Assembly: GCA_013177825.1 (NCBI GenBank)
Contig: JABLXX010000001.1
Coordinates: 124,001 to 188,000 of the forward strand
Source: Syntrophaceae bacterium
Lineage (GTDB): Bacteria > Desulfobacterota > Syntrophia > Syntrophales > PHBD01
Direction: 5' to 3'
Length of the DNA: 64,000 nt
Shown: positions 13,152-33,797 of the stretch, one piece after another
Position numbering within the stretch: position 1 is the stretch's first letter
How the letters are laid out: every line of letters starts with the position of its first letter
Program-made: the position numbers and the translations under genes
The notes under the pieces: model-generated
Told to the model about the DNA's origin: nothing
The model's input: only the letters and a program-made list of their open reading frames with translations
The model's database searches: none

Positions 13152-14108
13152 ATGAAGGCCCTTTTCTTCGACGGCGCCCTCCGTTTCCGGACGGACGCTC
13201 CCGAACCTCCGCGGGCAAAAGGATGGGCGCGGATCCGTGTTCACACGGCGGGCATCTGCGGAACGGATCTGCAGATCCTCGCTGGCTACCACGACTATCG
13301 GGGCATCCCAGGGCATGAATTCGTGGGCGTCGTCGAGGACGGGGACGATCCGTCCCTGATCGGTAGACGGGTCGTCGGGGAGATCAATATCGGCTGCGGC
13401 CGTTGCGCCTGCTGCAAGGCCGGAATGGAAAGACACTGCCTTGAGAGACGGGTTCTGGGCATCATCGGCCATCCCGGCTGCATGGCCGAATTCTGCAGCC
13501 TCCCTCTTGTCAATCTCCACCCCGTGCCAGAAGAAATCGGCGACGAGCGGGCCGTCTTCGTCGAACCGCTCTCTGCGGCCTGCGAAATCCTGGAGCAGGT
13601 TCCGCTCCGGAGGGACGAGCGGGCCGTCGTCCTGGGAAACGGGAGGATCGGTATCCTGTGCGCCTGGATCCTCTCTACGGTCCTGGAGGATGTGACCCTC
13701 GTGGGACATCATCCGGCCAAGCTGGAAGCCGCCCGCTGGCACCATTTGAAAACATGCGAAAAGGCGGGCGAGGCGGAGCGAAGCGCGGACCTGGTTGTCG
13801 AGGCCACCGGAAGCGCCCACGGCCTGGCGGAGGCGCTTGCTCTCTGCCGGCCCCGCGGAACCGTCGTCCTGAAAACCACTCTTGCCGCTTCCTTCCGCAT
13901 CGATCTTGCCCCCGTCGTCGTGAAGGAGATCTCCGTCGTCGGGTCCCGCTGCGGCCGCTTCGCCGACGGGCTGGAGATCCTCCGTGCACACCCGGACATG
14001 CCGCTGGAACGGCTGATCACCGGACGTTATCCGCTGGAGCGGGGAGTCGAAGCCTTCGAGCAGGCGAAACGGAAGGACAGCCTGAAAGTCCTCCTGGAAC
14101 TCCTTTAG
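13152..14108 (+). CDS. Zinc-dependent medium-chain dehydrogenase (threonine/sorbitol dehydrogenase-like)
   Basis: This 318-residue protein has the catalytic-zinc Cys in GICGTDLQ (about 37), GHEFVG at 56, and four structural-zinc Cys in CGRCACCKAGMERHC (about 83-97). A Rossmann motif GNGRIG lies near 165. It belongs to the threonine/alcohol dehydrogenase branch and is somewhat shorter than the usual ~340-350. The substrate is not determinable. AGGTGA precedes the ATG by a few bases. The gene sits alone, divergent from the deaminase operon and just upstream of tRNA-Leu. Confidence 0.88.
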   Translation: MKALFFDGALRFRTDAPEPPRAKGWARIRVHTAGICGTDLQILAGYHDYRGIPGHEFVGVVEDGDDPSLIGRRVVGEINIGCGRCACCKAGMERHCLERRVLGIIGHPGCMAEFCSLPLVNLHPVPEEIGDERAVFVEPLSAACEILEQVPLRRDERAVVLGNGRIGILCAWILSTVLEDVTLVGHHPAKLEAARWHHLKTCEKAGEAERSADLVVEATGSAHGLAEALALCRPRGTVVLKTTLAASFRIDLAPVVVKEISVVGSRCGRFADGLEILRAHPDMPLERLITGRYPLERGVEAFEQAKRKDSLKVLLELL

Positions 14109-14173
14109 AATCGGGCATTTTCGGGACAATCGCCTTGACACCCATCGGGAAAACCGTTAAGAATCCCCACCAT

Positions 14174-14261
14174 GCCCGGGTGGCGGAACTGGTAGACGCA
14201 AGGGACTTAAAATCCCTCGGTCCTCGCGGCTGTGCGGGTTCGATTCCCGCCCCGGGCACCA
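14174..14261 (+). tRNA. tRNA-Leu (UAA anticodon)
   Basis: This is an 88-nt class II tRNA with CCA encoded. The acceptor stem GCCCGGG/CCCGGGC, anticodon stem AGGGA/TCCCT with loop CTTAAAA (anticodon TAA), long variable arm and T-arm GCGGG-TTCGATT-CCCGC are all visible. It is intact and is the attachment target of the elements downstream. Confidence 0.96.
14206..14261 (+). repeat. attL of element 1 (tRNA 3' half, 56-bp direct repeat)
   Basis: From the anticodon loop to CCA this stretch is identical to 21017-21072. The two copies bracket the first integrated element. Outside the repeat the flanks differ (a GGGA versus GGG junction on the left, AT versus TC on the right). Confidence 0.93.
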
Positions 14262-14275
14262 ATAAAAACAAAGGG

Positions 14276-15370
14276 TTAAGCATTGACGGCTTGACCCTTT
14301 TTGTTTTCGATTTTGGTGACTGTGCCCGAAATTGTGCCCGTCTGTGCCTGAAGGTAGGTTTCCAGCTTGTGGGCCGCAAGCTGTAAGTCGGTATCCGAAA
14401 CCACGTTGTAACGCTCGAACACGCTCCGGGTCTTGTGCCCGGAAATCATCATGGCGACACGCTCCGGGATTCCACCCCGCACCATGTTGCGAACCGCCGT
14501 CCTTCTGAAGTCGTGAAATAGACGCTTGCCGATCTTCGCTTCATCGCAGGCTTTCGCCCAGGCTCCCCGGAAGTCCTTGACTCTGTCTGTTCCAGACTCA
14601 TTGGGGAACACACAAGGCAAAACCTTCTGTAAACCCTTTCGGGATTCCCACTGCTTCTGGAACACGGCTTTCAATTCATCGTCAAGGCATACCGTCCGCG
14701 CTTCGTCGTTTTTAGTTTCTCCCGTCTCAAGTCTCACGATCCCTTGTGCAAGGTCCACGTTTGACCATTGAAGGTTTTCAATCTCTGAAACCCTCCATCC
14801 TGTCTTGTACGCAAAGGTCACAAGCCCTTTCAGGTAATCCGGCAGGGCATCCCGCAAGGTCAGAAAGTCGCCATGCTCAAAGAATCCTTTGCGGACGTTG
14901 TTTTCCTTCAACATGGGAATGAAGGGGAGGCGGTCCACCTTGGGCGGGGTTTGTTTTGCCCCAAGGTTCAGAATCCGCTTCAAAGCTGCAAGCTCACGAT
15001 TCACGGTTGCGTTTTCCGCTCCCGCTTCAAGTCTCCCGTCAATGTATTTCCGTATGCGGGGTGTTGTGATTTCAGGAACTCGCATCCCTTCAAATGCAGT
15101 CTTTAGGTGCTTAACGCTACGTTCAGCACGGACTAAAGACTTCCTGCCGTTGATCTTGTAATCCGTTATGAAGTCCTCCGCCAATTCGTTAAAGCGGACC
15201 TTCTCAAAAACAATGCCGGGGAGCTTGCCGTCCACAATCTCTCCTTCACGCTTTCTTAACAACTTCTTTGCCTTTGTTTCGCTTACGGTCTTTGCGGACT
15301 CCCGATAGGGCTTCCCGTTCCGGTAATACTTGATCCACCAGACCTCGCCGCGCTTGTAAAGGCTTCCCAT
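14276..15370 (-). CDS. Tyrosine recombinase (phage-type integrase) of element 1
   Basis: This 364-residue integrase has an N-terminal arm-binding region (SLYKRGEVWWIKYYRNGK), a SAM-like core-binding domain (about 55-150), then a catalytic domain. The catalytic residues are Arg in KTGWRVSEI, the HDFRR box, GHKTR, and the nucleophilic Tyr in FERYN. It would catalyse recombination at the tRNA-Leu repeat. GGAGG lies ahead of ATG 15370. Its last codons lie 15 nt from the tRNA, and the TGTGCCCG repeats overlap its 3' end. The start region overlaps the Xre-type gene by 125 nt. Confidence 0.93.
   Translation of the reverse strand: MGSLYKRGEVWWIKYYRNGKPYRESAKTVSETKAKKLLRKREGEIVDGKLPGIVFEKVRFNELAEDFITDYKINGRKSLVRAERSVKHLKTAFEGMRVPEITTPRIRKYIDGRLEAGAENATVNRELAALKRILNLGAKQTPPKVDRLPFIPMLKENNVRKGFFEHGDFLTLRDALPDYLKGLVTFAYKTGWRVSEIENLQWSNVDLAQGIVRLETGETKNDEARTVCLDDELKAVFQKQWESRKGLQKVLPCVFPNESGTDRVKDFRGAWAKACDEAKIGKRLFHDFRRTAVRNMVRGGIPERVAMMISGHKTRSVFERYNVVSDTDLQLAAHKLETYLQAQTGTISGTVTKIENKKGQAVNA
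14321..14350 (+). repeat. Putative integrase arm-type sites, left cluster
   Basis: TGTGCCCG occurs at 14321-14328 and 14333-14340, and TGTGCCTG at 14343-14350. The first pair and its surroundings match the right cluster at 20865-20888 at 22 of 24 positions. These sit inside the integrase 3' end near attL. Confidence 0.6.
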
Positions 15371-15605
15371 TGCTCTTGACCTCCTTTCTCGTTTTCGTTT
15401 TCTTTTTCGTTCCCTCCTTGCCGGTTACGCCTTCACCTCCTTCCAATTCCAGACACCGAAGGGCAAGATGCAGGAACGGCGGAATCTCCCTGACTCCCCG
15501 CTCCCACTTGCTTATGGTCATGACATGGACTTCCAAAGCCGCTGCTAACCGTGCTTGGGCGTATCCATGAACCTCGCGCCATTTCTGCAATTGATCCGCT
15601 TTCAT
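15246..15605 (-). CDS. Xre-family helix-turn-helix regulator
   Basis: This 119-residue protein has an HTH at about residues 4-50: QLQKWREVHGYAQARLAAAL, then HVMTISKWERGVREIPPF, the classic Xre/Cro pattern. The C-terminal half is Lys/Arg-rich and is encoded in the stretch that overlaps the integrase start by 125 nt, so it may be dispensable. A palindrome sits in the promoter just upstream, which suggests autoregulation. It is likely the element's repressor or control protein for int and xis. Confidence 0.72.
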   Translation of the reverse strand: MKADQLQKWREVHGYAQARLAAALEVHVMTISKWERGVREIPPFLHLALRCLELEGGEGVTGKEGTKKKTKTRKEVKSNGKPLQARRGLVDQVLPEREALSGVRKDRKRNKGKEVVKKA

Positions 15606-15607
15606 GA

Positions 15608-15640
15608 TTCATCCATAAGCCATTGGCTTATATTTGTCAA
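15608..15640 (-). promoter_or_regulatory. Promoter with embedded palindromic operator for the Xre-type gene
   Basis: On the minus strand TTGACA (15640-15635) is followed after 17 nt by TATGGA. Within the spacer lies a perfect inverted repeat, ATAAGCC-3 nt-GGCTTAT (15615-15631). Transcription would begin at or near the ATG at 15605, which would make a nearly leaderless mRNA. Repressor binding to the palindrome is inference. Confidence 0.5.
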
Positions 15641-15649
15641 GGGAATTCT

Positions 15650-15826
15650 TCACGGGTAAGTGGTTTTCTGCATTTCAATCCATCGGTCCATATCGTGAAC
15701 GTCCAGTAGGATTCGCCTTCCATCGCGGACAACCGGCAACTTTCCCGCCCATACCATTTCCCGGACGGCCCATATGGAACGGCCCAAGTAAACAGCGGCT
15801 TCCGGCAGGGCGTAAAGCCGTTTCAA
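15650..15826 (-). CDS. AlpA/excisionase-like small DNA-binding protein
   Basis: This 58-residue reading frame gives KRLYALPEAAVYLGRSIWAV, then GKLPVVRDGRRILLDVHDMDRWIE. This is the helix-turn-helix plus wing pattern of AlpA/Xis-type proteins, which bend DNA for excision or activate integrase. No ATG is available; TTG at 15826 is the best start and its ribosome-binding site is weak, while an upstream ATT is also in frame. It lies between the Xre-type gene and a TGTGCCCG repeat cluster, which fits an excisionase. Confidence 0.7.
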   Translation of the reverse strand: MKRLYALPEAAVYLGRSIWAVREMVWAGKLPVVRDGRRILLDVHDMDRWIEMQKTTYP

Positions 15827-15829
15827 GAT

Positions 15830-15917
15830 TGTGCCCGTTGGATTCGTAATCCTTCGCGTCGTTGCAACCTCCCGAATCTACATGGTCAATTTTTCGACTG
15901 TGCCCGGATTGTGCCTA
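15830..15917 (+). repeat. Putative integrase/excisionase arm-type sites, xis cluster
   Basis: TGTGCCCG occurs at 15830-15837 and 15899-15906, and TGTGCCTA at 15910-15917, immediately upstream of the Xis-like start. The last pair is again preceded by GAC as in the left and right clusters. Confidence 0.5.
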
Positions 15918-16697
15918 CAAAAGCTCCCCTTGGATGATCGTCGGAACAGTCTTTCCCTTCATCAAGCAAACGGAGGATTCGAGGAAATTTTCCTGTTGGG
16001 ACGGACCTTCCTTCATCCCCGGAATGGACTGTTGATAATGGCCGTCCGATTCCTTGACTGTCCCCCCTCGTTTAAGCCGGATCGCTTCCATCTCTGCCGC
16101 GCTTCTTCCGGCCCTGATGAAATTCGGGTTTTTCCCCAAGCGGAAGGGGTAGAGACCGCAGGACGGCTTGATGCAATCCCGGACAAAATCCGCCCGTCCA
16201 CCTTGGCAGGAAAGGCAGAATTGACGGATCAATCGAACGGAAGGACGGCCCTTTCCAAACCTGTAGGGATTGAATTCACAGGACATGAATCCCTTTTCCC
16301 TTGCCGACTCTTCGCCGTCGCATCCGGCAACCGCTGAAGCCTGTCCTCCACAGCAATGAACACAGTAACGCCTGATTGCTTCTCCTGGGGTCAAATCATC
16401 CTCTCCTTTCTGTGCTGGTTTGTGTCCCGGCGGGGGTAATCCCTTCGCCTTCTTATGTCCCCCCTTATGTCCCCCCTTATGCCCCCCCTTTGCACCCCTT
16501 TTGCCCCCCTTGGGTCCCGTCGGGATGTTGTCTTGTTTCCCTTTGTCAAACTCCGACTCGATCAAAACATCAACCACCCCCGGTGGGGGGGACCGCCCCC
16601 TTATCGGTTCTTGATAATTTGCCCCTGTGTACCCGCCACGCAAAAAGGGGCATAAATTCACAAGTAATAAAGCGGACAGGCAGAACCAAAAAATCAC
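15915..16697 (-). CDS. Phage-type protein with duplicated Cys4 'LYPFRxGK' module
   Basis: The C-terminal two thirds carry two copies of a Cys module familiar from small phage/prophage proteins. The first is YCVHCCGGQASAVAGCDG with CEFNPYRFGKG; the second is FCLSCQGGRADFVRDC with CGLYPFRLGKNP. Each probably binds one zinc. Ahead of them is a basic stretch with GGHK repeated. ATG 16697 gives 260 residues with a hydrophobic, doubtful N-terminus; a GTG at 16577 starting VVDVLIESEFD is an equally good start. Function is unknown and the family is only recognised from its motif. Confidence 0.6.
   Translation of the reverse strand: MIFWFCLSALLLVNLCPFLRGGYTGANYQEPIRGRSPPPGVVDVLIESEFDKGKQDNIPTGPKGGKRGAKGGHKGGHKGGHKKAKGLPPPGHKPAQKGEDDLTPGEAIRRYCVHCCGGQASAVAGCDGEESAREKGFMSCEFNPYRFGKGRPSVRLIRQFCLSCQGGRADFVRDCIKPSCGLYPFRLGKNPNFIRAGRSAAEMEAIRLKRGGTVKESDGHYQQSIPGMKEGPSQQENFLESSVCLMKGKTVPTIIQGELL
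16453..16488. repeat. 12-bp tandem microrepeat (TTATGTCCCCCC)
   Basis: TTATG recurs at 16453, 16465 and 16477 with C-runs between, an exact 12-bp period that decays downstream. Read on the minus strand it encodes the GGHK repeat of the Cys-module protein. It is a likely slippage site. Confidence 0.7.
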
Positions 16698-16740
16698 ATC
16701 ATTTCGTCAATGACGCATTGACGGAACGGTCTTAATATCC

Positions 16741-17087
16741 TCAATGAAAACAAATTGATTCATCATCCGTATTTATTGGCATTTCGTAAAAAAAGTGGTG
16801 CCAATGTCACCAGTGAAAAGACAAAAAAGAGAAAGAACGCTTGACCAAGAAAGCATAAAAAAGGGTCTCATTAGATTTCCGTACCGCCTGGGCTTTGGAC
16901 TCAGGCTGTCTTTCCTGGATCATGCGCGCGTGCGCGCGTATCGGTGCATATAAATCGCGCGTGCATAGCTACCGCCAATCCTTTCAAATCCTGTATGTTT
17001 CAAACGGTTACTGAATGTTCTGGCTATTGCCATTGCTGCAATACACGCACGTACTGTTTGGGCGGATCATTAACAATCCTGTAATAA
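16741..17087. other. Gene-free stretch in element 1 with alternating purine-pyrimidine block
   Basis: I see no convincing reading frame here. The notable feature is 16921-16941, a 21-nt perfectly alternating purine/pyrimidine GC-rich tract, with a partial copy (CGCGCGTGCAT) about 20 nt further on. Confidence 0.5.
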
Positions 17088-17255
17088 TCAGCCTTCCCCA
17101 CGGTCCTTCCGTTTCAGGGTGACAGTCACAGGGATAGGTGCATCCTTCGGGATATAGATCATCCCGACGATCCCGCCTTCAGCTTCCATGGCATAGCGAT
17201 GGAACCGCTTGCTGTCATGCTCGTAACGAAATGTGCCCTTTGCTTCTGCCGTCAT
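17088..17255 (-). CDS. Small conserved phage-type protein (55 aa)
   Basis: The frame from ATG 17255 reads MTAEAKGTFRYEHDSKRFHR, then GGIVGMIYIPKDAPIPVTVTL and a Lys/Arg-rich end. Short proteins of this pattern recur in prophages and islands; no function is known to me. Its ATG overlaps the stop of the upstream gene (ATGA). Confidence 0.68.
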   Translation of the reverse strand: MTAEAKGTFRYEHDSKRFHRYAMEAEGGIVGMIYIPKDAPIPVTVTLKRKDRGEG

Positions 17256-17557
17256 GCTTTTCCTCCAATGGGTGTTGGTTTACTCGGTAAAGGTGCATCA
17301 CCTGAACATTGGGTTTCCTTCCAGTAGGAGCGGAGTTCATCCGGTGTGATGCAACAGGCGCAAATGCTGTCAAAACGAAACGGGTAAGCGGCTTCCAGTT
17401 CGGGCGGTCTCCTCCATCGCAGCATGATTCGTCCGCATCGCTTACAAGGTACACGCTCTGCATAACAAGCCTTCTTCAGGGAACCACCCCATGAAGGCAA
17501 GCCAACTTTTGTAACAGCCGTTCCCATTTGTTTCATTTCCCAGTCCATTTTGTGCAC
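17252..17557 (-). CDS. Small Cys-pair protein (possible zinc finger)
   Basis: This 101-residue frame contains CKRCG and, 30 residues later, CACC, spaced to form a zinc-binding knuckle, with otherwise unremarkable sequence. Several early Met codons leave the start uncertain (17557, 17545 or 17527). The ATGA overlap with the downstream 55-aa gene supports that it is translated. Function unknown. Confidence 0.5.
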   Translation of the reverse strand: MHKMDWEMKQMGTAVTKVGLPSWGGSLKKACYAERVPCKRCGRIMLRWRRPPELEAAYPFRFDSICACCITPDELRSYWKETQCSGDAPLPSKPTPIGGKA

Positions 17558-17671
17558 TCTTCACTCTTCATTTTGTGCACTGGTGGCATCATGCAATGGC
17601 ACCAACAGTTCAGATTTTGGACACTGAAAACCGGAATATTCCTTCCTACAGTGCACTTTCTGGACTCTTTA

Positions 17672-18160
17672 CTAATATTTACCATCCCTAGTCCCCCCTG
17701 AAACCTCTTTCTCCGTTAGTCTCTCCTTCGCTTTATTGATGAAAATCTCCGCATAATCGGGTTCGGCTCGCTCAATTACTCCTTTCCCAATCCCGCCCTC
17801 GTACCGTTCCCAATCTTTGGACAAGCGGAAGCGGTTGCTGACCTTGGCATTTCCTTCGCGTAGCCCCCCTTTCATGGTCCGCACAGCGAAGCCCTTTGCT
17901 TCAAGATCCACATAGGATTTGCGGAACGTTGACTTTGCAAATCCGCATTTTTCGGCCTCTTGAAAGGTGAAGGTAAACTGGGTTGCGTATAAGGCAGGGT
18001 CATCCAAGCGGCATTTCACCTTGCCCAGGAAGTAGGGGAGAAGTTTTGCCGCTGACGGGATCAACCGCTTGTAAGCAGATGAATTGAGAATATCCCATCG
18101 AAACGGGACATAGGGTGGAGGCTTGGGTTTGCTGTGACTCTTTTTAGAGGGTCTTCCCAT
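17672..18160 (-). CDS. Phage/satellite replication-type protein with winged-HTH-like region
   Basis: This 162-residue basic protein begins MGRPSKKSHSKPKPPPYVPF, then RWDILNSSAYKRLIPSAAKLLPYFLGK. It includes FTFQEAEKCGFAKSTFRKSY, which looks like a recognition-helix segment, and ends in charged helices. Similar proteins occur in phage and satellite replication modules, but the family name is uncertain. ATG 18160 is preferred over 18175 because GGGAG is at the right distance. It overlaps the upstream gene by 17 nt. Confidence 0.58.
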   Translation of the reverse strand: MGRPSKKSHSKPKPPPYVPFRWDILNSSAYKRLIPSAAKLLPYFLGKVKCRLDDPALYATQFTFTFQEAEKCGFAKSTFRKSYVDLEAKGFAVRTMKGGLREGNAKVSNRFRLSKDWERYEGGIGKGVIERAEPDYAEIFINKAKERLTEKEVSGGTRDGKY

Positions 18161-18410
18161 AGCCCGCTCCCGCACGCTTCAGCGTGAAGATCGTCCCTCT
18201 AACGGCTTTCAGTTCCCGTATGAAAGACCAGATTGGAACGGGAATATCCGTGTAGAGGGCAGCAATCGCCGGGGAGATGTCCCGTGAGAAACGCCAAGCT
18301 ATGCGGCCGTCCTCACTGCGGACAAAGGGCTGTGGTGGAATTTTCAGATGAAGAGATGCAAATGCGGCAATTTCGGACGAATCTGTAACGCGGATTTCTT
18401 CCTTCCTCAT
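18144..18410 (-). CDS. Small phage-type protein (possibly DUF5659-like)
   Basis: This 88-residue protein starts MRKEEIRVTDSSEIAAFASL and contains a segment GRIAWRFSRD. The pattern is reminiscent of small prophage proteins of the DUF5659 type; I am not certain. It is the first gene of the minus-strand run of element 1 and overlaps the replication-type gene. The leader upstream carries the structured inverted repeats described at 18445-18568. Confidence 0.5.
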   Translation of the reverse strand: MRKEEIRVTDSSEIAAFASLHLKIPPQPFVRSEDGRIAWRFSRDISPAIAALYTDIPVPIWSFIRELKAVRGTIFTLKRAGAGYGKTL

Positions 18411-18444
18411 GCAATCGTCTCCTTGTAATCGGGTTAGTCGTCAA

Positions 18445-18568
18445 ACACCGAAAAGAAAACTTGACGCCCGGCTCCGACTGGTGCATGAAGAAGTCGTGAC
18501 GCCGTTTCGGTGTCCATCGGGGCGATGAAAACCATGCTTGCCGGCCGGATTCATCGCCCCATTTTTTG
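18445..18568 (+). ncRNA. Candidate structured small RNA with intrinsic terminator
   Basis: ACACCGAAA (18445-18453) pairs with TTTCGGTGT (18505-18513), enclosing a smaller CGACT/AGTCG stem. A second hairpin, GGGGCGATGAA (18519-18529) with TTCATCGCCCC (18550-18560), is followed by ATTTTTTG. On the plus strand this has the shape of a short RNA ending in a Rho-independent terminator, transcribed opposite the first gene of the element's replication run. No promoter stands out, so this is a structural prediction. Confidence 0.4.
18519..18567 (+). terminator. Rho-independent terminator in element 1
   Basis: An 11-bp perfect stem (18519-18529 with 18550-18560) and a 20-nt loop are followed by a six-T run. 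The T-run is on the plus strand, while the surrounding genes are minus strand, so it must serve a plus-strand transcript. Confidence 0.6.
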
Positions 18569-18599
18569 TCATTGTACCTTAAAACATTCCTCCTCATGG

Positions 18600-19547
18600 T
18601 TCAAATCATCGACGCTATATCTTGTGGTGCGCGGGAACGGTACCACATAATAAGGTTTTTTCAAAAGAGTTTTTTTTATATAACTATCTGATTCATATGG
18701 ATAATTTATAGACAAAAATTTTTCGCCGGTCTCCCAAGAATGGAAGCGGTATGAATAACCTTTATTCCATTCCCCCCTGTAAAATTTATTGTAGCCGTGT
18801 GATCAGCCACAAACAACAGAATTATCAAGAAAAAACCCAACTCCCGTCCGAATGCTTTGAAACGCATCCTAAACGTGCAAACGCGTGAGTCCATGTTCCA
18901 TGAAGGAACACTACTCCACAATATCAATAACTGACGATTGGGTTTGTTAGGACGACTAACCAGCAGTCTTAGTAAGGGCGAGTGCCTGAATGAAAATGAC
19001 AAGATCACATACAATATTCGCTTGGAGAAGTCAAGCGAAATCTCGTTCCGTAAATGCGTGTGCGTTGCCACTATCCCCTTATTTTAATTTGATATACGGC
19101 CATAGACGTTGCGAAATGTTCACTTTTTTGAATCGGACTGTTCGCAACCGTCAGGATATATCCGAAAGGAGGCAGCCCTTTTCGCCGTCATATTGGGCTT
19201 TAGCGTTGTTTACATTCCCGTTCCGTGTGTTGAAACGCCGGAGTCCCATCGACGGCTATTACCTCCCCTCACTTCCGGTACCACCCCCACCCCGCCCCCT
19301 CAACCAATATTTTGGAAACGTAAGCGAAGCAAACAACCGATCTATTTCTGCCTTGACATTTCTGACAGCCTGTGAATATCAAAATTCACATTTCCTTGGT
19401 TATCAGATCCATTTCCAGAATCACCATAAATAAGTATCACTTGCGTAAAGGCTGCATCTTTGGGCTTACACTGCATGGTCTTGAATTAATGGGGGCTGTT
19501 ACCTTTGCCTGCTTAATATCGAACAACAGGGAAGGGAGGGGGTTAAA
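18600..19547. other. Gene-poor stretch between replication run and cargo
   Basis: Base composition drops from left to right. Open frames exist on both strands but none shows protein-like composition or a clear ribosome-binding site. The best is a plus-strand frame around 19109-19375 with a hydrophobic stretch followed by Pro-rich sequence and an AGGAGG upstream of an internal TTG. I would not call it. Confidence 0.4.
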
Positions 19548-20177
19548 ATGATTACAAAATTATTACAGGCTATGAGTATACCAATAATAATACTGAATAT
19601 GGTTGGGGGATTCATCGGTGGCATCTGGTTAGCCTTTTTAGGCGAATGGAAATTGATTGGAATTGGATTATTACTTCTCTTCACATCTCATTGGATAATT
19701 TCAATTTTATTGATGCCGACTATTCCAATTGGTTTATTATCATTTCACTTTTTAAAAAAGAAAAATATTTTAGGACATTTTTTTGGTTTCTTGTCAATCC
19801 TTTACACGAACTTCTTAATTATTGGTAGTTGTTATGTGGCTTTCCTTATATGCACAAGTTTTTATACAGAAGCAACCATAAATTACAAACTAATTCCTTA
19901 CATGTTGTGGTCTTGGGGAATGGCTCTCGGTCCCTGGCAGTACTTATCTTCAAAGGAAACACACAATGAAATTTCAACTATTACACTGTTTAGTGCGTCA
20001 GTCTTCTATTTCTTTATTCTTGTAACCATACTGATTATCCCGGCGATTGCTTTTATTCCTATTCTACTATTCTGTTTAATTCATTTCATAGTTATTCCGA
20101 TTGTTAGCTTATATATAGCACACAAGACTATGCCAGATTATGTAGATGAATTTTGTGAAACGACACAAAACACATAG
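19548..20177 (+). CDS. AT-rich cargo: multi-pass membrane protein of unknown function
   Basis: This 209-residue protein has about five or six strongly hydrophobic segments (around residues 10-30, 38-58, 78-104, 115-130, 143-170, 172-195) with short polar loops. It ends in an acidic tail (PDYVDEFCETTQNT). The DNA is markedly AT-rich compared with the rest of the element. GGGAGGGGG precedes ATG 19548. It is followed after 69 nt by a secreted-protein gene, probably in one transcript. I do not recognise the family. Its location in the cargo slot next to attR fits a conflict or superinfection function, which is inference. Confidence 0.72.
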   Translation: MITKLLQAMSIPIIILNMVGGFIGGIWLAFLGEWKLIGIGLLLLFTSHWIISILLMPTIPIGLLSFHFLKKKNILGHFFGFLSILYTNFLIIGSCYVAFLICTSFYTEATINYKLIPYMLWSWGMALGPWQYLSSKETHNEISTITLFSASVFYFFILVTILIIPAIAFIPILLFCLIHFIVIPIVSLYIAHKTMPDYVDEFCETTQNT

Positions 20178-20246
20178 CTATTTTTAAAATACTCTTTTAT
20201 AAATAAAGTTAGATTACACGTTTTCCCTTTCTTAAAGGAGAAGATT

Positions 20247-20708
20247 ATGACCACCAAATTAGTTACCATAATTTCTGTCTTTTTATTATTTCTTATGGGC
20301 TATTCTGCTCAAGCTTTTGAAGTTAAAGGAATTGCTGGAACGACAACTTTTTGTCAAAGGGGAAAATGTGTTACAACAATTGATAATAGTGAAGTGATAT
20401 ATGAAGTGAATCTCGACGTACAAAAGGTGACAAGGAAAGCAGTATTGAACAAAAGCATTCCAAACAACACTATAGGTGGATTACAAAGCGATAACACAGA
20501 ATATGCGGTATTTTATGATAATAAAGACTTGGAGACTCGTAAACTGTTTAATGAACAAAGAATTATTAAAGCCATTGGGAAAACAGCTCTACTGGATGGA
20601 TTTGAAACAATAGTTATTGGAGATGATTTTATACATACTTCTAGATCATCAAGCGATTATTTTGTTATATATTATTATAAAAGGGTAGGGACTATCCCTA
20701 TTCGCTGA
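20247..20708 (+). CDS. AT-rich cargo: exported protein of unknown function
   Basis: This 153-residue protein has a classical signal peptide (VTIISVFLLFLMGYSAQAF, cleavage near AQA-F), followed by a mature domain of about 130 residues. Two Cys (CQRGKC) lie near the mature N-terminus and could form a disulfide. The rest is beta-rich with no recognised motif. AAGGAG precedes the ATG. It pairs with the membrane protein upstream and transcription appears to end at the terminator at 20901. Function unknown. Confidence 0.72.
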   Translation: MTTKLVTIISVFLLFLMGYSAQAFEVKGIAGTTTFCQRGKCVTTIDNSEVIYEVNLDVQKVTRKAVLNKSIPNNTIGGLQSDNTEYAVFYDNKDLETRKLFNEQRIIKAIGKTALLDGFETIVIGDDFIHTSRSSSDYFVIYYYKRVGTIPIR

Positions 20709-20867
20709 CCACCCCCGTGGAATGCATTCACTTTGTTGCTTTAATCACTTAATTGCCTGTTTGATTTCTTAATTGTCATTGGTTGTGAATATGCCAACAC
20801 TCTATCGTGCATCAATATCAGGTCTCCGTGGAACGGGAAGGGGTGAGTACTTGTCCCCTCTCCCGAC

Positions 20868-20887
20868 TGTGCCCAAAAATGTGCCCG
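20868..20887 (+). repeat. Putative integrase arm-type sites, right cluster
   Basis: TGTGCCCA (20868-20875) and TGTGCCCG (20880-20887) repeat the left-end pair with the same 12-nt spacing and GAC prefix. They lie about 130 nt inside attR. Confidence 0.6.
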
Positions 20888-20900
20888 TGAAAAACAAAAA

Positions 20901-20950
20901 GGCTCCAACCGTGGCCAACTCCTGCCAACATGGTTGGAGCCTCTTTCTTT
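20901..20950 (+). terminator. Strong terminator after the cargo pair
   Basis: GGCTCCAACC (20901-20910) and GGTTGGAGCC (20932-20941) form a 10-bp perfect stem followed by TCTTTCTTTT. An A-run precedes the stem, so it may act in both directions. Confidence 0.8.
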
Positions 20951-21016
20951 TGTGATAACAGTTAATTACCCATAATTTCGGATGCCTGCAAAGTCACCAA
21001 TGGTGCATGGATTGGG

Positions 21017-21072
21017 CTTAAAATCCCTCGGTCCTCGCGGCTGTGCGGGTTCGATTCCCGCCCCGGGCACCA
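21017..21072 (+). repeat. attR of element 1 / attL of element 2 (tRNA-Leu 3' half copy)
   Basis: This 56-bp stretch is identical to tRNA positions 14206-14261, including the CCA. The 5' half of the tRNA is absent, so it is not a functional gene. It is shared by the two elements. Confidence 0.92.
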
Positions 21073-21174
21073 TCTGACAATCCAAGACAGTCCAATGCAG
21101 ACCAAAACCCGTTAGAAATAGCGGGATTTTCTTGATTTCCTGTCCGAACCTGTGCTATGTAATCTTATGCAATC

Positions 21175-21193
21175 GGGGGTACATGGGGGTATA
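21175..21193 (+). repeat. Putative arm-type sites of element 2, left end
   Basis: GGGGGTACAT followed by GGGGGTAT forms a direct repeat between the tRNA copy and the integrase gene. A near copy sits at 36246-36262. A rightward complement (ATACCCCC) occurs at about 21206. Confidence 0.45.
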
Positions 21194-21253
21194 TTTCGGC
21201 CATTTATACCCCCACGGAAAAACAGTTACCCCCAGAAACGGAGGAAATCCTTT

Positions 21254-22471
21254 ATGGCATTGAGTGACGTAAAGATCCGATCCTCTAAGCCGTCAATGAA
21301 ACAGAAGAAATTGTTTGATGGTGACGGTCTCTTCCTCCTGGTCACACCCCAAGGCGGAAAATACTGGCGATTCAAGTACCGGTTCGAAGGCAAGGAAAAG
21401 CTTCTCTCTCTCGGCACCTATCCTGAAATCAGCCTTGTTGATGCCCGGCAGAGGCGGGACGATGCCCGCCGACAGATAGCCCACGGCATTGATCCCGGGG
21501 CCGTCCGGAAGGCTCAAAAGAGGGCAGAGACGCAAGAGACGGAGACATTCGAGGTCATAGCCCTTGAATGGCACGGGAAGTTTTCTCCATCATGGCGACC
21601 GATACACGCCAATACCATCATGAGCCGCCTCAATCGCGACCTGTTCCCCTGGATCGGTAAACGCCCTATCAATGAAATCAAGGCACCGGAACTACTGGCG
21701 GTACTTCGCCGTGTCGAGGCAAGGGGGGCGCTTGATTCCGCCCACAAGTGCAGAATTATTGCCGGGCAGGTGTTCCGTTACGCTGTGGTTACTGGAAGGG
21801 CGGAACGCGACCCATCAGCCGATCTTAAAGGGGCATTAGCGCAGCGGGGGGATAAGCACCTTGCGGCTATCACCGACCCCAAGGAAGTAGCGCCCCTCAT
21901 GAGGACCATAGACGGCTATGAAGGGCATTACGTTGTCAGGGCCGCCCTTCGCCTTGCCCCGCTCTTCTTCGTCCGTCCTGGCGAATTGAGGCACGCTGAG
22001 TGGATAGAGATGGACCTTGAAGAAGCAACATGGAACATCCCGCCCGGGAAGATGAAGATGAAAAACGCGCACGTTGTTCCCTTGTGCCATCAGGCCGTGG
22101 AGATACTGACAGAGCTGAAAGAACTGACCGGGGCGAGCAAGTACGTGTTCCCCTCCGGGCGGTCTTTTGCCCGGCCCATGAGCAACAACGCCCTACTGGC
22201 AGCCCTGCGGCGCATGGGATACGACAAGGAAACCATGACACCTCATGGATTCCGGGCCATGGCGCGAACGATCCTTGACGAAGTGCTGCAGGTGAGGCCG
22301 GATTTCATCGAACACCAGCTAGGCCATGCCGTCAGAGACCCGAATGGGCGGGCCTACAACCGGACGGCGCACCTTGCCGAGCGCCGGAAGATGATGCAGC
22401 TATGGGCGGATTACCTGGACGGGCTAAGGTCCGGTGCCGTCGTCGTGCCGTTCCGGGTGACGGGCCGTTAA
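21254..22471 (+). CDS. P4-type tyrosine recombinase (integrase) of element 2
   Basis: This 405-residue integrase has the N-terminal DUF4102 arm-binding domain (KPSMKQKKLFDGDGLFLLVT, then YRFEGKEKLLSLGTYPEISL), a core-binding domain around 100-190, and a catalytic domain. Conserved residues are Arg in FFVRPGELR, a TPHGFRAMARTIL box (H-x2-R), QLGH and a final Tyr in GRAYNRT. GGAGG precedes ATG 21254; the upstream in-frame ATG at 21152 has no ribosome-binding site. The gene reads away from the tRNA copy, the standard P4-like arrangement. Confidence 0.94.
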   Translation: MALSDVKIRSSKPSMKQKKLFDGDGLFLLVTPQGGKYWRFKYRFEGKEKLLSLGTYPEISLVDARQRRDDARRQIAHGIDPGAVRKAQKRAETQETETFEVIALEWHGKFSPSWRPIHANTIMSRLNRDLFPWIGKRPINEIKAPELLAVLRRVEARGALDSAHKCRIIAGQVFRYAVVTGRAERDPSADLKGALAQRGDKHLAAITDPKEVAPLMRTIDGYEGHYVVRAALRLAPLFFVRPGELRHAEWIEMDLEEATWNIPPGKMKMKNAHVVPLCHQAVEILTELKELTGASKYVFPSGRSFARPMSNNALLAALRRMGYDKETMTPHGFRAMARTILDEVLQVRPDFIEHQLGHAVRDPNGRAYNRTAHLAERRKMMQLWADYLDGLRSGAVVVPFRVTGR

Positions 22472-22489
22472 AGCCGGGGGGAGGCGGGT

Positions 22490-23251
22490 ATGCCAAGGCG
22501 GGTTAAAACCAGGAAGACGGCGGGCGGTTTCAGCATCCCGGATTACAGAAACATTCCGACCGGTATTGCTGAGGGGCGCTATGGGACTTTGACCGAGGAT
22601 AATGTGAGAGATTTTCTGTTAAGCCTCAAGGGGGTCGCGGACGATGACGATATACTCCGCTTGGTGGCGGGGATCTCCTTCTACTTAGGCGAATACATCT
22701 CAATAGATGCCAGGACCCTCGCGACATGTAGAGCAACCAACCGGGAAGACTTGGCCGCGATGATTCGAGATAGCAAACAGCTCCTGGAGCGACTCAGAGA
22801 AATCGAGGACCGGCCTTTCTACGTCCCCGAGACACTCACGGGGGTCGTGTTCCTCAACGATGCGCCTGCGGATAGCGAAGACCACGAAACGGCATACCGC
22901 TTCAATCAGGCATTCGGAAGAAGGGCGGCCGACCTTGCCGGGCCGCTGGCGGCGTTCCTCAACGAGGCGGAGCTTCTCTCGGAGGCAATCACAGCGGGGA
23001 GGCGCGGCAGAAAAAGCGCCGATGCGGTTGGACTCATCAAGATCATCGCGATGTTCTACTCCCGCTACATCGGCAAGCCCATGAGCGAGCCTACAGGGGG
23101 ATTCCGCGTTGCCGTGAAGTGGACGCTTGAGCATTTGGGCCTGCCATGTGAAGATCCATCCCGGGGCATCCGTGAGGCCCTGAAAAACTTCAAGCCATCA
23201 CCCCTTGACAAGGGCTATACCGCCTCCTCTGACAAAAAGCCTTCAAATTAA
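22490..23251 (+). CDS. Integrase-adjacent hypothetical protein
   Basis: This 253-residue, mostly helical, charged protein begins MPRRVKTRKTAGGFSIPDYR. The C-terminal part (FYSRYIGKPMSEPTGGFRVA, then GLPCEDPSRGIREALK) resembles conserved proteins that sit beside integrases in proteobacterial islands; I know no function. GGGAGG is just upstream. It ends 74 nt before the AlpA gene. Confidence 0.65.
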   Translation: MPRRVKTRKTAGGFSIPDYRNIPTGIAEGRYGTLTEDNVRDFLLSLKGVADDDDILRLVAGISFYLGEYISIDARTLATCRATNREDLAAMIRDSKQLLERLREIEDRPFYVPETLTGVVFLNDAPADSEDHETAYRFNQAFGRRAADLAGPLAAFLNEAELLSEAITAGRRGRKSADAVGLIKIIAMFYSRYIGKPMSEPTGGFRVAVKWTLEHLGLPCEDPSRGIREALKNFKPSPLDKGYTASSDKKPSN

Positions 23252-23325
23252 TTTCTTTTCGTCTCTTTAAATCGCGTCCAATCCTGCCCTATCCTGCCCC
23301 CACAGAACAAATCGAGGGGGAAGAC

Positions 23326-23559
23326 ATGACTACGCACAAAACAACCCAAGGCAAGTCGAACGAATTTGCAACCCCAAAACTCCTGCGGCTCCGGCAGGTT
23401 TTACAGATTATCCCGGTGAGCCGGTCGACCTGGTGGTCGGGGGTCCGCGATGGTCGCTTTCCGAGGCCCATCAAGCTCTCTATCGGGTGCACGTGCTGGC
23501 GTGAATCGGACGTGCTCCGCCTCGTGGAGGGCGAGAACAGCACCAGGCAGACTGATTGA
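23326..23559 (+). CDS. AlpA-family transcriptional regulator
   Basis: This 77-residue protein has the AlpA HTH: LLRLRQVLQIIPVSRSTWWS, then GVRDGRFPRPIKLSIGCTCW, ending RESDVLRLVEGE. Such proteins activate integrase or excision in P4-like elements. It precedes the replication-type genes. Confidence 0.88.
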   Translation: MTTHKTTQGKSNEFATPKLLRLRQVLQIIPVSRSTWWSGVRDGRFPRPIKLSIGCTCWRESDVLRLVEGENSTRQTD

Positions 23560-23569
23560 GGGCCGGGCC

Positions 23570-23689
23570 ATGAACGGCTACCCGTCAATCACAGTCGTCT
23601 TCAACCCCCTATCCTGGCGGATTGTGAAAATCCTACCCAACGCCGACAACGACGTGGTGGCGGCCCGCCCCGGGAACAACCATGGATGA
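23570..23689 (+). CDS. Possible 39-aa small protein
   Basis: ATG 23570 opens MNGYPSITVVFNPLSWRIVK, then ILPNADNDVVAARPGNNHG. It fits tightly between two genes on the same strand and reads as a single beta-helix unit. Evidence beyond context is slight. Confidence 0.4.
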   Translation: MNGYPSITVVFNPLSWRIVKILPNADNDVVAARPGNNHG

Positions 23690-23707
23690 AATCAGGGGGG
23701 AAGGCTG

Positions 23708-24526
23708 ATGCCACGGATCCGGACCGTAAAACCAGGATTTTTCCGCCATGAGGGGCTCCAGGACCTGGAGGAGCAGCACCCGAAACAACGGCCCATGCTC
23801 GTCTTCGCCGGGCTCTGGACTCAGTGTGACAAGGAAGGGCGCTTCGAATGGCGGCCCCGGCAGTTGCATCTCGATATTCTCCCGTTCCTGACTTTCGACT
23901 TCGAAAAGACCCTCAACGTTCTGCAGGACGCCGGATTTATCCGCCGATATGAGGCCGGCGGGAAGGCTTACGGGGTGATTCCCGGCTTTTCAGAGCACCA
24001 GCGGATCAACGGGAAGGAAGCCCAGGCGGATCCGCTCTACCCGGTCCCTCCTAAATTTCATCAAGAAATCTCAACAGATGAAACCGAGAAACAACAGGGA
24101 AGTGCCGGAGAAGCACCCGGGAAGCACCCAGGATCCCAAGGAAGTGGAAGAGGAAATGGAAATGGAAATGGAACGGAAGAAATAAATTGCGGGGCGAAGG
24201 ATCGCCCGCCCTATGAAGAAATCACACATTTCCTGAATGAAAATTCCGGAAAGTCCTTCCGTTCAAGCAGCAAGACAACGCAGCGACTCATAAAAGCCCG
24301 CTGGGCGGAAGGCTTCAGGACAGACGATTTTCAAAAAGTTATCCGGAACAAGTGCTGCTCGTGGCGGGCGGATCCGAAGATGGTTGACTACCTGAGGCCG
24401 GAAACGCTTTTCGGGCAGAAGTTTGAAAGCTACCTGAATGAAATCAAACACCCGATGACCGGCCAGGCATCGGACCTGACGGTGAAGAACATGGCGGCCC
24501 TTGAAAATTGGAGCCCTCCGGAATGA
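23708..24526 (+). CDS. Phage replication-initiator-like protein with Phg_2220_C C-terminus
   Basis: In this 272-residue protein, residues 1-115 look like an N-terminal replication-organiser domain (MPRIRTVKPGFFRHEGLQDL, with FAGLWTQCDKEGRFEWRPRQ). A Gly/Asn repeat linker (GNGNGNG) follows. The C-terminal ~80 residues match the conserved phage C-terminal domain (PYEEITHFLNENSGKSFR, then YLRPETLFGQKFESYLNE). Such proteins act in phage DNA replication initiation. The next gene starts inside its stop (ATGA), suggesting a coupled pair like initiator and loader. Confidence 0.82.
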   Translation: MPRIRTVKPGFFRHEGLQDLEEQHPKQRPMLVFAGLWTQCDKEGRFEWRPRQLHLDILPFLTFDFEKTLNVLQDAGFIRRYEAGGKAYGVIPGFSEHQRINGKEAQADPLYPVPPKFHQEISTDETEKQQGSAGEAPGKHPGSQGSGRGNGNGNGTEEINCGAKDRPPYEEITHFLNENSGKSFRSSSKTTQRLIKARWAEGFRTDDFQKVIRNKCCSWRADPKMVDYLRPETLFGQKFESYLNEIKHPMTGQASDLTVKNMAALENWSPPE

Positions 24527-25071
24527 AGAACGACAGGCTTTTCAAATCCTACATGCTGGCCATGGGCGAGGTTTTCAACAAGCAACTGACGCCGCTCCTT
24601 CATTCCCTCTACTGGAAGGCCCTGGAGCCCTTCAGTGACGAGGACTGCGAGCGGGCCTTCAAGGATTTGATTTTCACATCGAAGTTTTTCCCGAAGCCCG
24701 TTGAATTTGTGGAGTTGCTGCAGGGTAAGAAGGAAGACCAGGCAACCCGGGCCTGGATTAAGGTTGTCGAGGCCGTCCGGAGGATCGGGAGCTATTCGTC
24801 CGTGAGGTTTGACGATCCGGTGATTCATTCCGTCTTCAAGTTTTGGGGCGGCTGGGGTGTCACGGCAACTTGGAAAGACGCGGACTTGAAGTGGAAGGGC
24901 CTGGAATTCGAAAAGCTGTACCGGGTCATGTCTGCCGGCGGGAATCATCCGGAGTACCTGCCCGGGAGCCATGAGATTGAGAACGGAGCCCGCGGGTATG
25001 ACGCAAAACTTGGAATTGTTGAGATTGGCGGTGGAGCAAGGCTCCTCATAGGAGCTTCAGAAGAGAAATAG
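24523..25071 (+). CDS. Phage DUF6475-like protein, possible helicase-loader role
   Basis: This 182-residue protein begins MKNDRLFKSYMLAMGEVFNK, a pattern shared with small phage proteins placed after replication initiators. It contains SDEDCERAFKDLIFTSKFFP and a Trp/Gly-rich FKFWGGWG segment. The ATG overlaps the previous stop. The loader role is inferred from position only. Confidence 0.65.
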   Translation: MKNDRLFKSYMLAMGEVFNKQLTPLLHSLYWKALEPFSDEDCERAFKDLIFTSKFFPKPVEFVELLQGKKEDQATRAWIKVVEAVRRIGSYSSVRFDDPVIHSVFKFWGGWGVTATWKDADLKWKGLEFEKLYRVMSAGGNHPEYLPGSHEIENGARGYDAKLGIVEIGGGARLLIGASEEK

Positions 25072-25171
25072 CGTTGTACTGTTTGTTGTCCTCCGCGAAG
25101 GGGGTTCCGGTGAAGCCTGCCGGACCCCCGACGGAGGACGGACAAAAACAAATCAGCGAACCGAAAGGAGC

Positions 25172-25963
25172 ATGATCATGCCGAAAATCAGCCAACTTCC
25201 GGCCGCGACTACAGCGGCGGATGCAGACATTACCCTCCTGGTGCAGGGCGGATCGACAAAGAAAGTCGCACTGTCCGTCCTGAAGGCCTATTTTAACGGC
25301 AGTAAGGAGTGGCCGATTCAGGTGGTGGAACAGGCGAGCGCATGCTCACAGTATGCCGCCGCGGATAATGGCTATATACCCGACAGCATGAACGGCATGA
25401 ACCTTGTGGGGGCAGTAGCCGGAGCAAGTGATCCCGGAATCGGCGGGACGATGGAAGTTGCCATTTATCGCAACCGGGAAACCCGCCTTGGCGACAGCAC
25501 AACCCAATTCGACATTACGAATCCGAGCGGCACCACGTTCCGCTACACCTATGATGGAACGGGCACAGACCCCGGCATTGCAGACAGCCTTGCCTCATTA
25601 CAGATCGGAGACCAGGTAATTCCGCAAGCCCAGAACTTTGCCGCCGGGAACAATGGAAAGTATGTGCTGACGGGAGTGGGTGCCAACTACTTTGAAATCG
25701 ATAACGCTGGGGGGGCCGTTGAATCCAACAAGACCCTCGGCACCGGCTATCTTGCCGTCAACCGCACGCGATCCATGCTGTCAACGAACCTAAACATTGA
25801 CAGTTACCATACTACATCGGTGACAGCAGCAGTCCCTGCTGCGGTCGACATGGACTTTGACGATATCCGGGCAGGAGATAGGATCGTGTCTGTAATCATG
25901 GCGATCCACAGCGGGACTCCGGCAACAGGGTTGGGTGTGACACCGACGTTCCGGCTACCGTAG
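25172..25963 (+). CDS. Phage tail-fibre/structural-type protein
   Basis: This 263-residue protein opens MPKISQLPAATTAADADITL, then VQGGSTKKVALSVLKAYF, the short N-terminal motif common to phage tail and appendage proteins. The remainder is Gly/Ser/Thr-rich and predicted beta. GGAG precedes the paired ATGs at 25172/25178. Standing between replication genes and a tape measure, it may be a receptor-binding or decoration protein. Confidence 0.6.
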   Translation: MIMPKISQLPAATTAADADITLLVQGGSTKKVALSVLKAYFNGSKEWPIQVVEQASACSQYAAADNGYIPDSMNGMNLVGAVAGASDPGIGGTMEVAIYRNRETRLGDSTTQFDITNPSGTTFRYTYDGTGTDPGIADSLASLQIGDQVIPQAQNFAAGNNGKYVLTGVGANYFEIDNAGGAVESNKTLGTGYLAVNRTRSMLSTNLNIDSYHTTSVTAAVPAAVDMDFDDIRAGDRIVSVIMAIHSGTPATGLGVTPTFRLP

Positions 25964-26018
25964 GATCATAGTATGACACCTTTTGTATAAGGGTAAAATA
26001 AAAGCGGAGGAAAGAAAG

Positions 26019-26525
26019 ATGCAAAAAATCATTTTTGGCATTGAAAACATCGAGAATTTCATGGGCGCGGGGTGGTCCGTGGAGTCGAAAAGCGCGGTCT
26101 CTGGTCTCCTGCGCGTCATGAAGCAAAGCTTCGGGTTCCCCATGAAGCCGCGGAGAAACTCACAGGGGACGAAGGTTCCATCTCTGGATCTGAAAGAGTT
26201 TCGGTCCTGGGCGAAGGAGAACGGCCTCAATCCAGGGGAGCCCGAGAAGATCACGCTTCAGGATCTGGAGCGGGCGCACCTCAGGCGGCACATCGGGGCC
26301 ATGCCGGATCGGGTCTTGCGGGGTTGGCGGGAGATATGCGCCTTCACCAGGTCGGACATCCCAAGTTTCTTGGAATGGCGAAATTTTGTGAGCTACCCCA
26401 TCAGCAAAACAAAGGGAGCCGGCGGCGAGGTTGAGGCGGATAGCAAGGACCTGCTCCGGTTCCTGCTTGAACGAGGCGCACCGCTGCCCATGGCGGAGAT
26501 TTTCAGGCGGAGGCCCGTTGCATGA
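26019..26525 (+). CDS. Hypothetical protein of element 2
   Basis: This 168-residue basic protein begins MQKIIFGIENIENFMGAGWS. I do not recognise it. ATG 26019 is chosen because GGAGG lies nine nt upstream; the frame is open from 25983. It overlaps the M41-like gene by ATGA, so the two are probably translated together. A DNA-binding or adaptor role would fit its charge, but nothing specific is visible. Confidence 0.6.
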   Translation: MQKIIFGIENIENFMGAGWSVESKSAVSGLLRVMKQSFGFPMKPRRNSQGTKVPSLDLKEFRSWAKENGLNPGEPEKITLQDLERAHLRRHIGAMPDRVLRGWREICAFTRSDIPSFLEWRNFVSYPISKTKGAGGEVEADSKDLLRFLLERGAPLPMAEIFRRRPVA

Positions 26526-27292
26526 AGGCGGATAGGGAATTACGGAAGACGGCAGACCATGAAGCCGCCCACGCCCTTGTCGGCTGGATCGCCGGGCAGC
26601 GGATCGAGAGCATCACCGTTGATCCCAGGCGTGCCGGGGATTCCCAAGGGGTCTGCTACCTGTCGGGCGGCCGGATAGGTGTTATCGGAGAACCGAAGAG
26701 CCTTACAGCGGACCAGGCGCACTTCCTCCTGGCTGGGAGGACCTCCGATGATCTTTTCCATCCCGGGGGGCGTCCCGGTCATGGGCAGGATTTCCGGAAC
26801 CTGGAGGACCTGCTGCCCTTGAATGACGAGACCCTCAAGATGCACGCCTTTCCCCACGGGGAAAAGTCTATCGAGGACTTCTACCAGATGTTCCGGGGGC
26901 CGGTCGTAAAGCTGTTGAGATCCCGCCGGGGACGACGTGCACACCGGGCGCTGTCGGCGGCCCTGATGGAGGACCAGACCTTATCCGGCCAACATGCGGC
27001 CGAGATCCTCCAGGGGGCCTGGGGCGATCCCCTGCCCCCCCGTGCCCTACCCAGGGAAGATCATTGCGGGATCATCGACAAGAGACCGGCGAACCACGGG
27101 GAACTGTTCCGGACCATTCGAGGCCTGGCCGGCCTGGCGCTGGCCGACTGTGAGGCGATGCAGGGGCGGGGCACGATGAAGGAGATCCAGCAGAGACAGC
27201 GGGCAGAGCATCTCCTCCACTTGCTGCTGGTCGTTGTCGGCAAAACCGGCGCGGCGCCCCAGGGGGACGGGCGGGTCCTCCCCAAAAGTTGA
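26522..27292 (+). CDS. Stand-alone FtsH-protease-like (M41) metallopeptidase domain protein
   Basis: In this 256-residue protein, residues 9-35 read RKTADHEAAHALVGWIAGQR, giving the zinc motif H13-E14-x2-H17, followed by the IESITVDPR strand seen in M41 peptidases. The third zinc ligand is matched by D90 in GHGQDFRNLEDLL, at the place of FtsH GAxNDLxxA. The ...GRTSDDLF segment equals FtsH GRAAEEL. No AAA+ ATPase or TM segment is present. It may be a soluble protease or a decoy that uses a host or phage partner; that is inference. Confidence 0.65.
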   Translation: MKADRELRKTADHEAAHALVGWIAGQRIESITVDPRRAGDSQGVCYLSGGRIGVIGEPKSLTADQAHFLLAGRTSDDLFHPGGRPGHGQDFRNLEDLLPLNDETLKMHAFPHGEKSIEDFYQMFRGPVVKLLRSRRGRRAHRALSAALMEDQTLSGQHAAEILQGAWGDPLPPRALPREDHCGIIDKRPANHGELFRTIRGLAGLALADCEAMQGRGTMKEIQQRQRAEHLLHLLLVVVGKTGAAPQGDGRVLPKS

Positions 27293-27389
27293 AGGCGGTA
27301 CGGTACGCAGAGGCTCGATATTCGTCTAGGTGAGGGTAATTTTTTGAAGGTTTACGGTAGCAGTCGGATTCCAGAAACGAGGGCATTTT

Positions 27390-27794
27390 ATGAAAATCAA
27401 GGGGAAATCGGCACTTGCCGAGCATTTCAAGGTTAGCAGGACGACCATTGATGCATGGCTCCGGCGCGGGTGCCCCTACGAAGGCGGCGACAGGGAACCA
27501 TATGTTTTCGAGACAAGCGACGTGGAGCGATGGCAGCGGGACCGGGACCGGGACCGGGGCGGTAAGAGCGTCAGGACAATCAGACAAATCGAACTTGCAG
27601 ACGGTTTTTTATCCAGTGAGGCCGACCACAGGACTCCCGGACAAGCCATTGCCGAAACCTTCGCAGGGGCGATCCTGTCTATTGCTCGGCAAAAAGGAAA
27701 GGGGTGGGACTTCCGAACCGACCCGGAGGTGCAGGAGCTGCTGCAGCAACTCGCCGATACCATTGACGGGGTGGATCATGAACGGTACAGATAA
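27390..27794 (+). CDS. HTH protein, Nu1/terminase-small-subunit-like
   Basis: This 134-residue protein has an N-terminal winged-HTH (SALAEHFKVSRTTIDAWLRR, then GCPYEGGDREPYVFETSDV) as in Nu1 and DUF1441-type packaging proteins, followed by an Arg/Asp-rich linker and a helical C-terminus. No large terminase follows, so the packaging role is uncertain. It could instead be a regulator. Confidence 0.55.
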   Translation: MKIKGKSALAEHFKVSRTTIDAWLRRGCPYEGGDREPYVFETSDVERWQRDRDRDRGGKSVRTIRQIELADGFLSSEADHRTPGQAIAETFAGAILSIARQKGKGWDFRTDPEVQELLQQLADTIDGVDHERYR

Positions 27795-27936
27795 AATGCA
27801 GGCCATTCCCGAGAAAAACGAAGAGTGTAAAGTGCAATGACGCGTCCATTAAGGGCCATATCGCACCCCAAGGGTAAAGAGTAGAGCCCGCCTGGGTTTT
27901 AACAGGTAAACAGTAAACAACCGAAAGGAGGACGGC

Positions 27937-28296
27937 GTGGATATTGAGAAGTTAAAGGAATTTTTGACGGAAAGAAGGGCCGAGATGTTGAAACAAGCCC
28001 GCAGCGCTCTGGAAGCAAACACGAACAGCCTTCAGTCCATTATGGACGGGGAGGTGTCAAGGCTGGTCGTAGAATTTGCAGACCTGTCGACACAAATGGC
28101 CGATATTTACGAGGAGGCACTGGCCAAGGTCGAGACTACGTTTTCAGAAAATGCAAGCGACAAAGAAAGAATGAACTACCTTGTTTTTGTTCAGGATATT
28201 AAGGCACGGGTGGAAGATATTCAAAATAGAATCATGGTTATTCGTGAAAAAATATTGCGGCATTCAATTCGCATAACCAAGACCGGAAATTGCTGA
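27937..28296 (+). CDS. Coiled-coil hypothetical protein
   Basis: This 119-residue, almost entirely helical protein (MDIEKLKEFLTERRAEMLKQ and onward) has heptad-like spacing. It uses a GTG start at 27937 behind AGGAGG. It lies immediately upstream of the tape-measure gene, the usual position for tail assembly chaperones, but no such motif is visible. Confidence 0.55.
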   Translation: MDIEKLKEFLTERRAEMLKQARSALEANTNSLQSIMDGEVSRLVVEFADLSTQMADIYEEALAKVETTFSENASDKERMNYLVFVQDIKARVEDIQNRIMVIREKILRHSIRITKTGNC

Positions 28297-28319
28297 ATAA
28301 ATTGAAGGAGGTAATAACC

Positions 28320-30986: not shown

Positions 30987-30987
30987 T

Positions 30988-33735: not shown

Positions 33736-33797
33736 GACACCTTCTATTTTCTAGGACAGGTCATCGAACACATATATGAGATGAGCAGCACGTGCAC

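Follow-up and report, generated by a model that had tools for sequence, protein, structure and literature searches.

The locus studied here raises the question of what two AT-rich genes are doing at the far end of a small integrated element in a Syntrophaceae bacterium, and whether they work as a pair. An earlier note on the same 64,000-nucleotide stretch of DNA (the window) had read them as foreign cargo in the far-end slot of a tRNA-integrated satellite, and had proposed an anti-phage or superinfection-exclusion role, perhaps exerted by both proteins together in the cell envelope. The features below, given in window coordinates, outline an integrated element of 6.87 kb that is bounded by a tRNA-Leu gene and an exact 56-bp copy of its 3' end, with the cargo pair placed between the element's regulatory part and attR.

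14174..14261, plus strand: tRNA-Leu (TAA), the integration site, with the attL core at 14206-14261 (ARAGORN, Rfam, 56-bp exact repeat).
14276..15370, minus strand: tyrosine integrase, 364 aa (Phage_integrase, E 1.3e-22); its relatives occupy numerous tRNA genes across the class.
15246..15605, minus strand: helix-turn-helix (HTH) regulator, 119 aa (HTH_3, E 1.8e-6); related elements have one too.
15650..15826, minus strand: AlpA/excisionase-like HTH_17 protein, 58 aa (HTH_17, E 1.8e-8; PHROG 66 excisionase, E 1.4e-6), present in most related elements.
15915..16697, minus strand: 260-aa cysteine-containing protein of unassigned function, with no family match, common to the L050 element (50% over 119 aa).
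17672..18175, minus strand: 167-aa protein, possibly replication-initiator-like on a very weak match (PHROG 391 O-like, E 0.41).
18144..18410, minus strand: 88-aa backbone protein at the edge of the cargo slot; L052 has a related ORF in the corresponding place (E 1e-5).
19548..20177, plus strand: cargo gene 1 (P0001), a 209-aa polytopic membrane protein with relatives at L004/L010, L005/L011 and L015.
20247..20708, plus strand: cargo gene 2 (P0002), a 153-aa exported protein with a signal peptide and cysteines C36 and C41, with a relative in L002.
20891..20951, plus strand: strong terminator hairpin, possibly bidirectional, an inverted repeat with 23-nt arms (-29 kcal/mol, z -5.9).
21017..21072, plus strand: attR, the duplicated tRNA-Leu 3' end (56/56 bases identical to 14206-14261).

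Integrases related to that of the element (46-75% identity) adjoin many tRNA genes across the class, and att repeats are clear in two of the related elements (L052 and L060). The L052 element, inserted at the same tRNA-Leu, carries an ORF that resembles the 88-aa protein, followed by a 512-aa ORF (L052:8888-10426) and then attR. The L060 element, from a congeneric species and located at tRNA-Thr, has a 1673-aa NACHT-like protein (L060:2023-7044) as its only large gene besides the integrase; the NACHT match of this protein lies below Pfam's curated score, and a sequence search of solved structures gave no relative for it. Because related elements carry other genes there, the far-end slot is a variable cargo slot, and the att repeats together with the swapped cargo of L052 and L060 bear out the earlier placing of foreign genes in such a slot. 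The cargo genes are absent from the one other genome of the genus, and neither the window nor the 40 kb beyond it contains another exact att copy.

The type of element is harder to name. It is small, with an integrase and an AlpA-type regulator, as in PICMI (PMC10803314), and its integrase, small regulators and variable cargo slot, which recalls their antiviral hotspots, are features of P4-like satellites (PMC9122126). It differs from the latter in that the search found in it no gene for a primase, for capsid size or for exploiting a helper, and in that the slot seen here adjoins attR rather than a demonstrated cos site (PMC9122126). In PICMI a primase is mandatory; among the element's principal genes (the integrase, the 260-aa and 167-aa proteins, P0001 and P0002) none matched a primase, so the element falls outside the PICMI definition, and it also differs in integration site and phylum (PMC10803314). 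The label 'satellite' is therefore backed by the integrase and the AlpA-like regulator but, with no primase or capsid gene found, it is unproven.

Both cargo genes are real. Each is preceded by a Shine-Dalgarno stretch (AGGGAGGGGG ahead of P0001, AAAGGAG ahead of P0002), and of 1000 dinucleotide shuffles of positions 19431-21016, only four had a longest ORF of 153 aa or more and one a longest ORF of 209 aa or more; since, in addition, the changes between the two genes and their relatives lie mainly in third codon positions, we regard them as genuine coding sequences. Their GC content is 0.32, compared with 0.51 for the part of the element from the integrase to the rep-like gene and 0.56 for the window. 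They lie on a common strand with a 69-base gap between them and share one terminator, the hairpin about 180 bases 3' of P0002 and near attR. The earlier description of two plus-strand genes with good ribosome-binding sites, a deviating composition and a strong terminator was thus accurate on each count. Promoter-like sites around the cargo genes were no more frequent than in shuffled sequence. A match to the Rfam family ctRNA_p42d that is below threshold (28 bits, gathering 50) coincides with the terminator hairpin (window 20896-20953) and is probably a chance similarity.

Neither protein could be placed in a family or fold by the remote-homology check (profiles and structure prediction) that the earlier note, which recognised neither, had called for. 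Searches of P0001 and P0002 against Pfam, PHROGs and NCBIfam gave no useful match, the PADLOC 2.0.0 defence profiles gave no family up to E 1 for either protein, and sequence searches of solved structures with the cargo proteins returned nothing. P0001 is predicted to have five to seven membrane helices, of which the structural model (pLDDT 77) shows seven, and hydropathy agrees with a polytopic protein. The earlier view of a polytopic protein with five or six transmembrane segments and an acidic tail consequently survives as to topology, but the model has seven helices and the tail is private to this copy. Against PDB and BFVD the P0001 model gave no convincing fold match, its best Z of 6.2 being a middling value to unrelated membrane proteins. 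For P0002 the model was unusable (pLDDT 38). The signal peptide and the CxxxxC pair, both already seen in the earlier note, were confirmed: C36 and C41 are the protein's sole cysteines, and its single relative has conserved the two of them.

Among 395 genomes drawn from the phylum, P0001 had two convincing relatives besides its own copy, and the searches of viral contigs added one, of P0001 only; the family is recognisable by the motifs GGIWLAxLGEW and PYxLWSWGMALGPWQ. The closest relative (L010, also L004; 54% identity) occupies a cassette by itself and comes second after an integron-type integrase (L010 5928-7211) that contains two Phage_int_SAM_4 stretches. An attC-like hairpin (z -4.0) lies ahead of this relative, and the contig ends within the stretch that follows the gene; closeness to an integron integrase, together with an attC site separating the cassettes, identifies this relative, from sequence, as an integron cassette. 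The second relative (L011, also L005; 49% identity; genome G045) is flanked by a duplicated guaA 3' end on one side and holB on the other; a frameshift at the 5' end puts its first codons in a different frame from the remaining ones, and the guaA-holB site of the sister species G140 and G258 is without a P0001 relative. This interval (L011:7269-9000) varies among the three related species, in which the guaA 3'-end duplicate, a methyltransferase gene and the P0001-related membrane gene come and go.

The third relative, a distant one (L015; 29% identity), is on a 54.7-kb viral contig with terminase genes, where it lies 15 bases behind a PAS-like gene that is itself 2 bases behind a probable repressor; the repressor call comes from a weak PHROG match (E 0.012) and from position, at this one phage locus. 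Plasmid and phage collections searched by tblastn held no match to P0001 or P0002. Several further P0001 matches were set aside: L006, L008 and L009 matched weakly over part of the query only and look like unrelated transport permeases, L007 was a weak, frame-broken match at a contig end, and L014 was short and doubtful. Taken together, P0001 is best described as a protein, probably of the inner membrane, that belongs to a rare and undescribed family.

The sole relative of P0002 (about 57-58% identity) is a lone cassette on a Desulfobacteraceae contig (L002), and an order-level search led to the same locus again. L002:1-10061 is an integron-type cassette array, with two attC sites found by scan, and its neighbouring genes include FRG (PDC-S15), PDC-S11 and T5orf172; FRG and PDC-S11 are PADLOC candidate defence families.

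Relatives of each gene thus turn up singly in integron-type arrays, those of P0001 also in a phage. In the window itself, an attC scan of positions 14000-21200 found no R''/R' pair with complementary L boxes, folding of the cargo flanks gave no attC-like hairpin, and the bacterium's own assembly contained no match to an integron integrase above the TIGR02249 cut-off. With no attC site in the window, the two copies are not integron cassettes now. As a control, the same scan found the two sites in L002 and missed the L010 site, which was found by folding, so a degenerate site in the window is not fully excluded.

We tentatively favour, at a strength that falls a little short of probable, the explanation that P0001 and P0002 arrived separately as mobile cargo in the variable slot at the far end, P0001 being a stand-alone exclusion protein like SieA of phage P22 and P0002 being independent of it. 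Members of the P0001 family are also carried in an integron cassette, at the insertion site beside guaA and in a phage, close to a probable repressor. P0002 would be a periplasmic or secreted protein acquired in the same slot, possibly sharing the promoter of P0001. SieA is an inner-membrane protein of 162-164 aa with three predicted transmembrane helices that blocks DNA injection (PMC10883804). The two resemble each other as polytopic membrane proteins of similar size, on hydropathy and the helical model in the case of P0001, which presumably also sits in the inner membrane. SieA is prophage-borne, and the L015 relative likewise lies near a probable repressor (PMC10883804), this being the single phage relative and the repressor call a weak one. 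In contrast, SieA has three predicted helices and no detected sequence relation to the P0001 family, for which an exclusion role is inferred. By analogy, P0001 might sit in the inner membrane and interfere with the entry of phage DNA as SieA does, DNA entry being the presumed step of exclusion.

For the cargo as a whole, we judge an anti-phage function to be nearly as likely as its absence. It is made likelier by the phage relative, whose operon probably encodes a repressor, and by the defence-like cargo of related elements. On the other side are the absence of any PADLOC family match, the empty fold searches and, for the phage relative, a single locus at 29% identity. The claim of anti-phage or exclusion cargo therefore gains from the L015 relative behind its probable repressor and from the L002 relative beside candidate defence genes, but the link of P0001 and P0002 to phage conflict, drawn from sequence context, is indirect. 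The nearest experimental comparison is with Vibrio integrons: of the 179 cassettes of V. cholerae, 88 were expressed and assayed and at least 16 conferred resistance to phages, and in V. parahaemolyticus 9 of the 57 assayed did so, most of the cassettes tested having no anti-phage effect (PMC12409362). Those cassettes too are small, single-gene and of an unfamiliar sequence class, and both window genes have relatives in integron-type arrays; the window copies differ in lacking an attC site, in lying within a tRNA-integrated element and in being known from sequence (PMC12409362). Such base rates make an anti-phage role possible, and not likely on that ground alone.

The chief rival is that the cargo is mobile and adaptive with a function unrelated to phages, P0001 being a transporter, channel or stress protein and P0002 an envelope or surface factor, both kept for a benefit in the habitat. 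We consider this quite possible, at perhaps one chance among a few. The same Vibrio data, with most tested cassettes inactive against phages (PMC12409362), speak for it, as do the location of the relatives mainly outside phages and the lack of a defence family match, whilst the relative in the probable repressor operon of a phage and the NACHT-like gene in the slot of a related element of the same genus speak against it.

That P0001 and P0002 form a two-component envelope system jointly blocking DNA entry, as the earlier note had suggested, is improbable. The shared strand, the 69-base gap, the common terminator and the compatible compartments of the two proteins would suit it, and on the phage contig the P0001 relative also precedes a short protein with a signal peptide that has no sequence relation to P0002. 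The two genes are, however, together at none of the four loci with relatives: the P0001 relative is alone in its cassette in L010, as is the P0002 relative in L002, no P0002 relative was found in G371, a genome with a P0001 relative, and no P0001 relative in the L002 genome. With four loci only, the co-occurrence check lowers the likelihood of the two-component idea and leaves it unsupported. The small protein directly behind the P0001 relative on the phage contig (L015:8628-8897) is cysteine-rich.

Membrane effectors are common in abortive infection, and a polytopic membrane protein as cargo of an element could suggest a toxin with its antidote or an element maintenance module, in which P0001 would be an effector that forms pores or arrests growth and the gene next to it would control it; we think this very unlikely, as the two genes do not co-occur and the exported P0002 is in another compartment than a cytoplasmic antidote. 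Least likely of all, the genes would be decaying passengers without current function, as their absence from the other genome of the genus and the frameshifted G045 relative might suggest, but the two genes of the window are unbroken, have their ribosome-binding sites and have changed mainly at third codon positions.

To return to the favoured explanation, of P0001 as a stand-alone exclusion protein, it is quite possible, with more reservation than for an anti-phage function as such, that P0001 founds a new single-gene superinfection-exclusion family moving between integron cassettes, phage immunity operons and tRNA-integrated elements. Should P0001 prove to block phages, three different carriers of defence genes, namely integrons, prophages and small tRNA-integrated elements, would have a gene family in common, which would show how a gene passes from one to another. 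The related elements with swapped cargo, found class-wide, form a ready list for finding further defence genes in the phylum.

A second integrated element (window 21152-36000) begins 80 bases past attR, with a P4-type integrase (21152-22471) and a tape measure protein (28290-30986), two genes that point to a prophage or its remnant in tandem with the first element.
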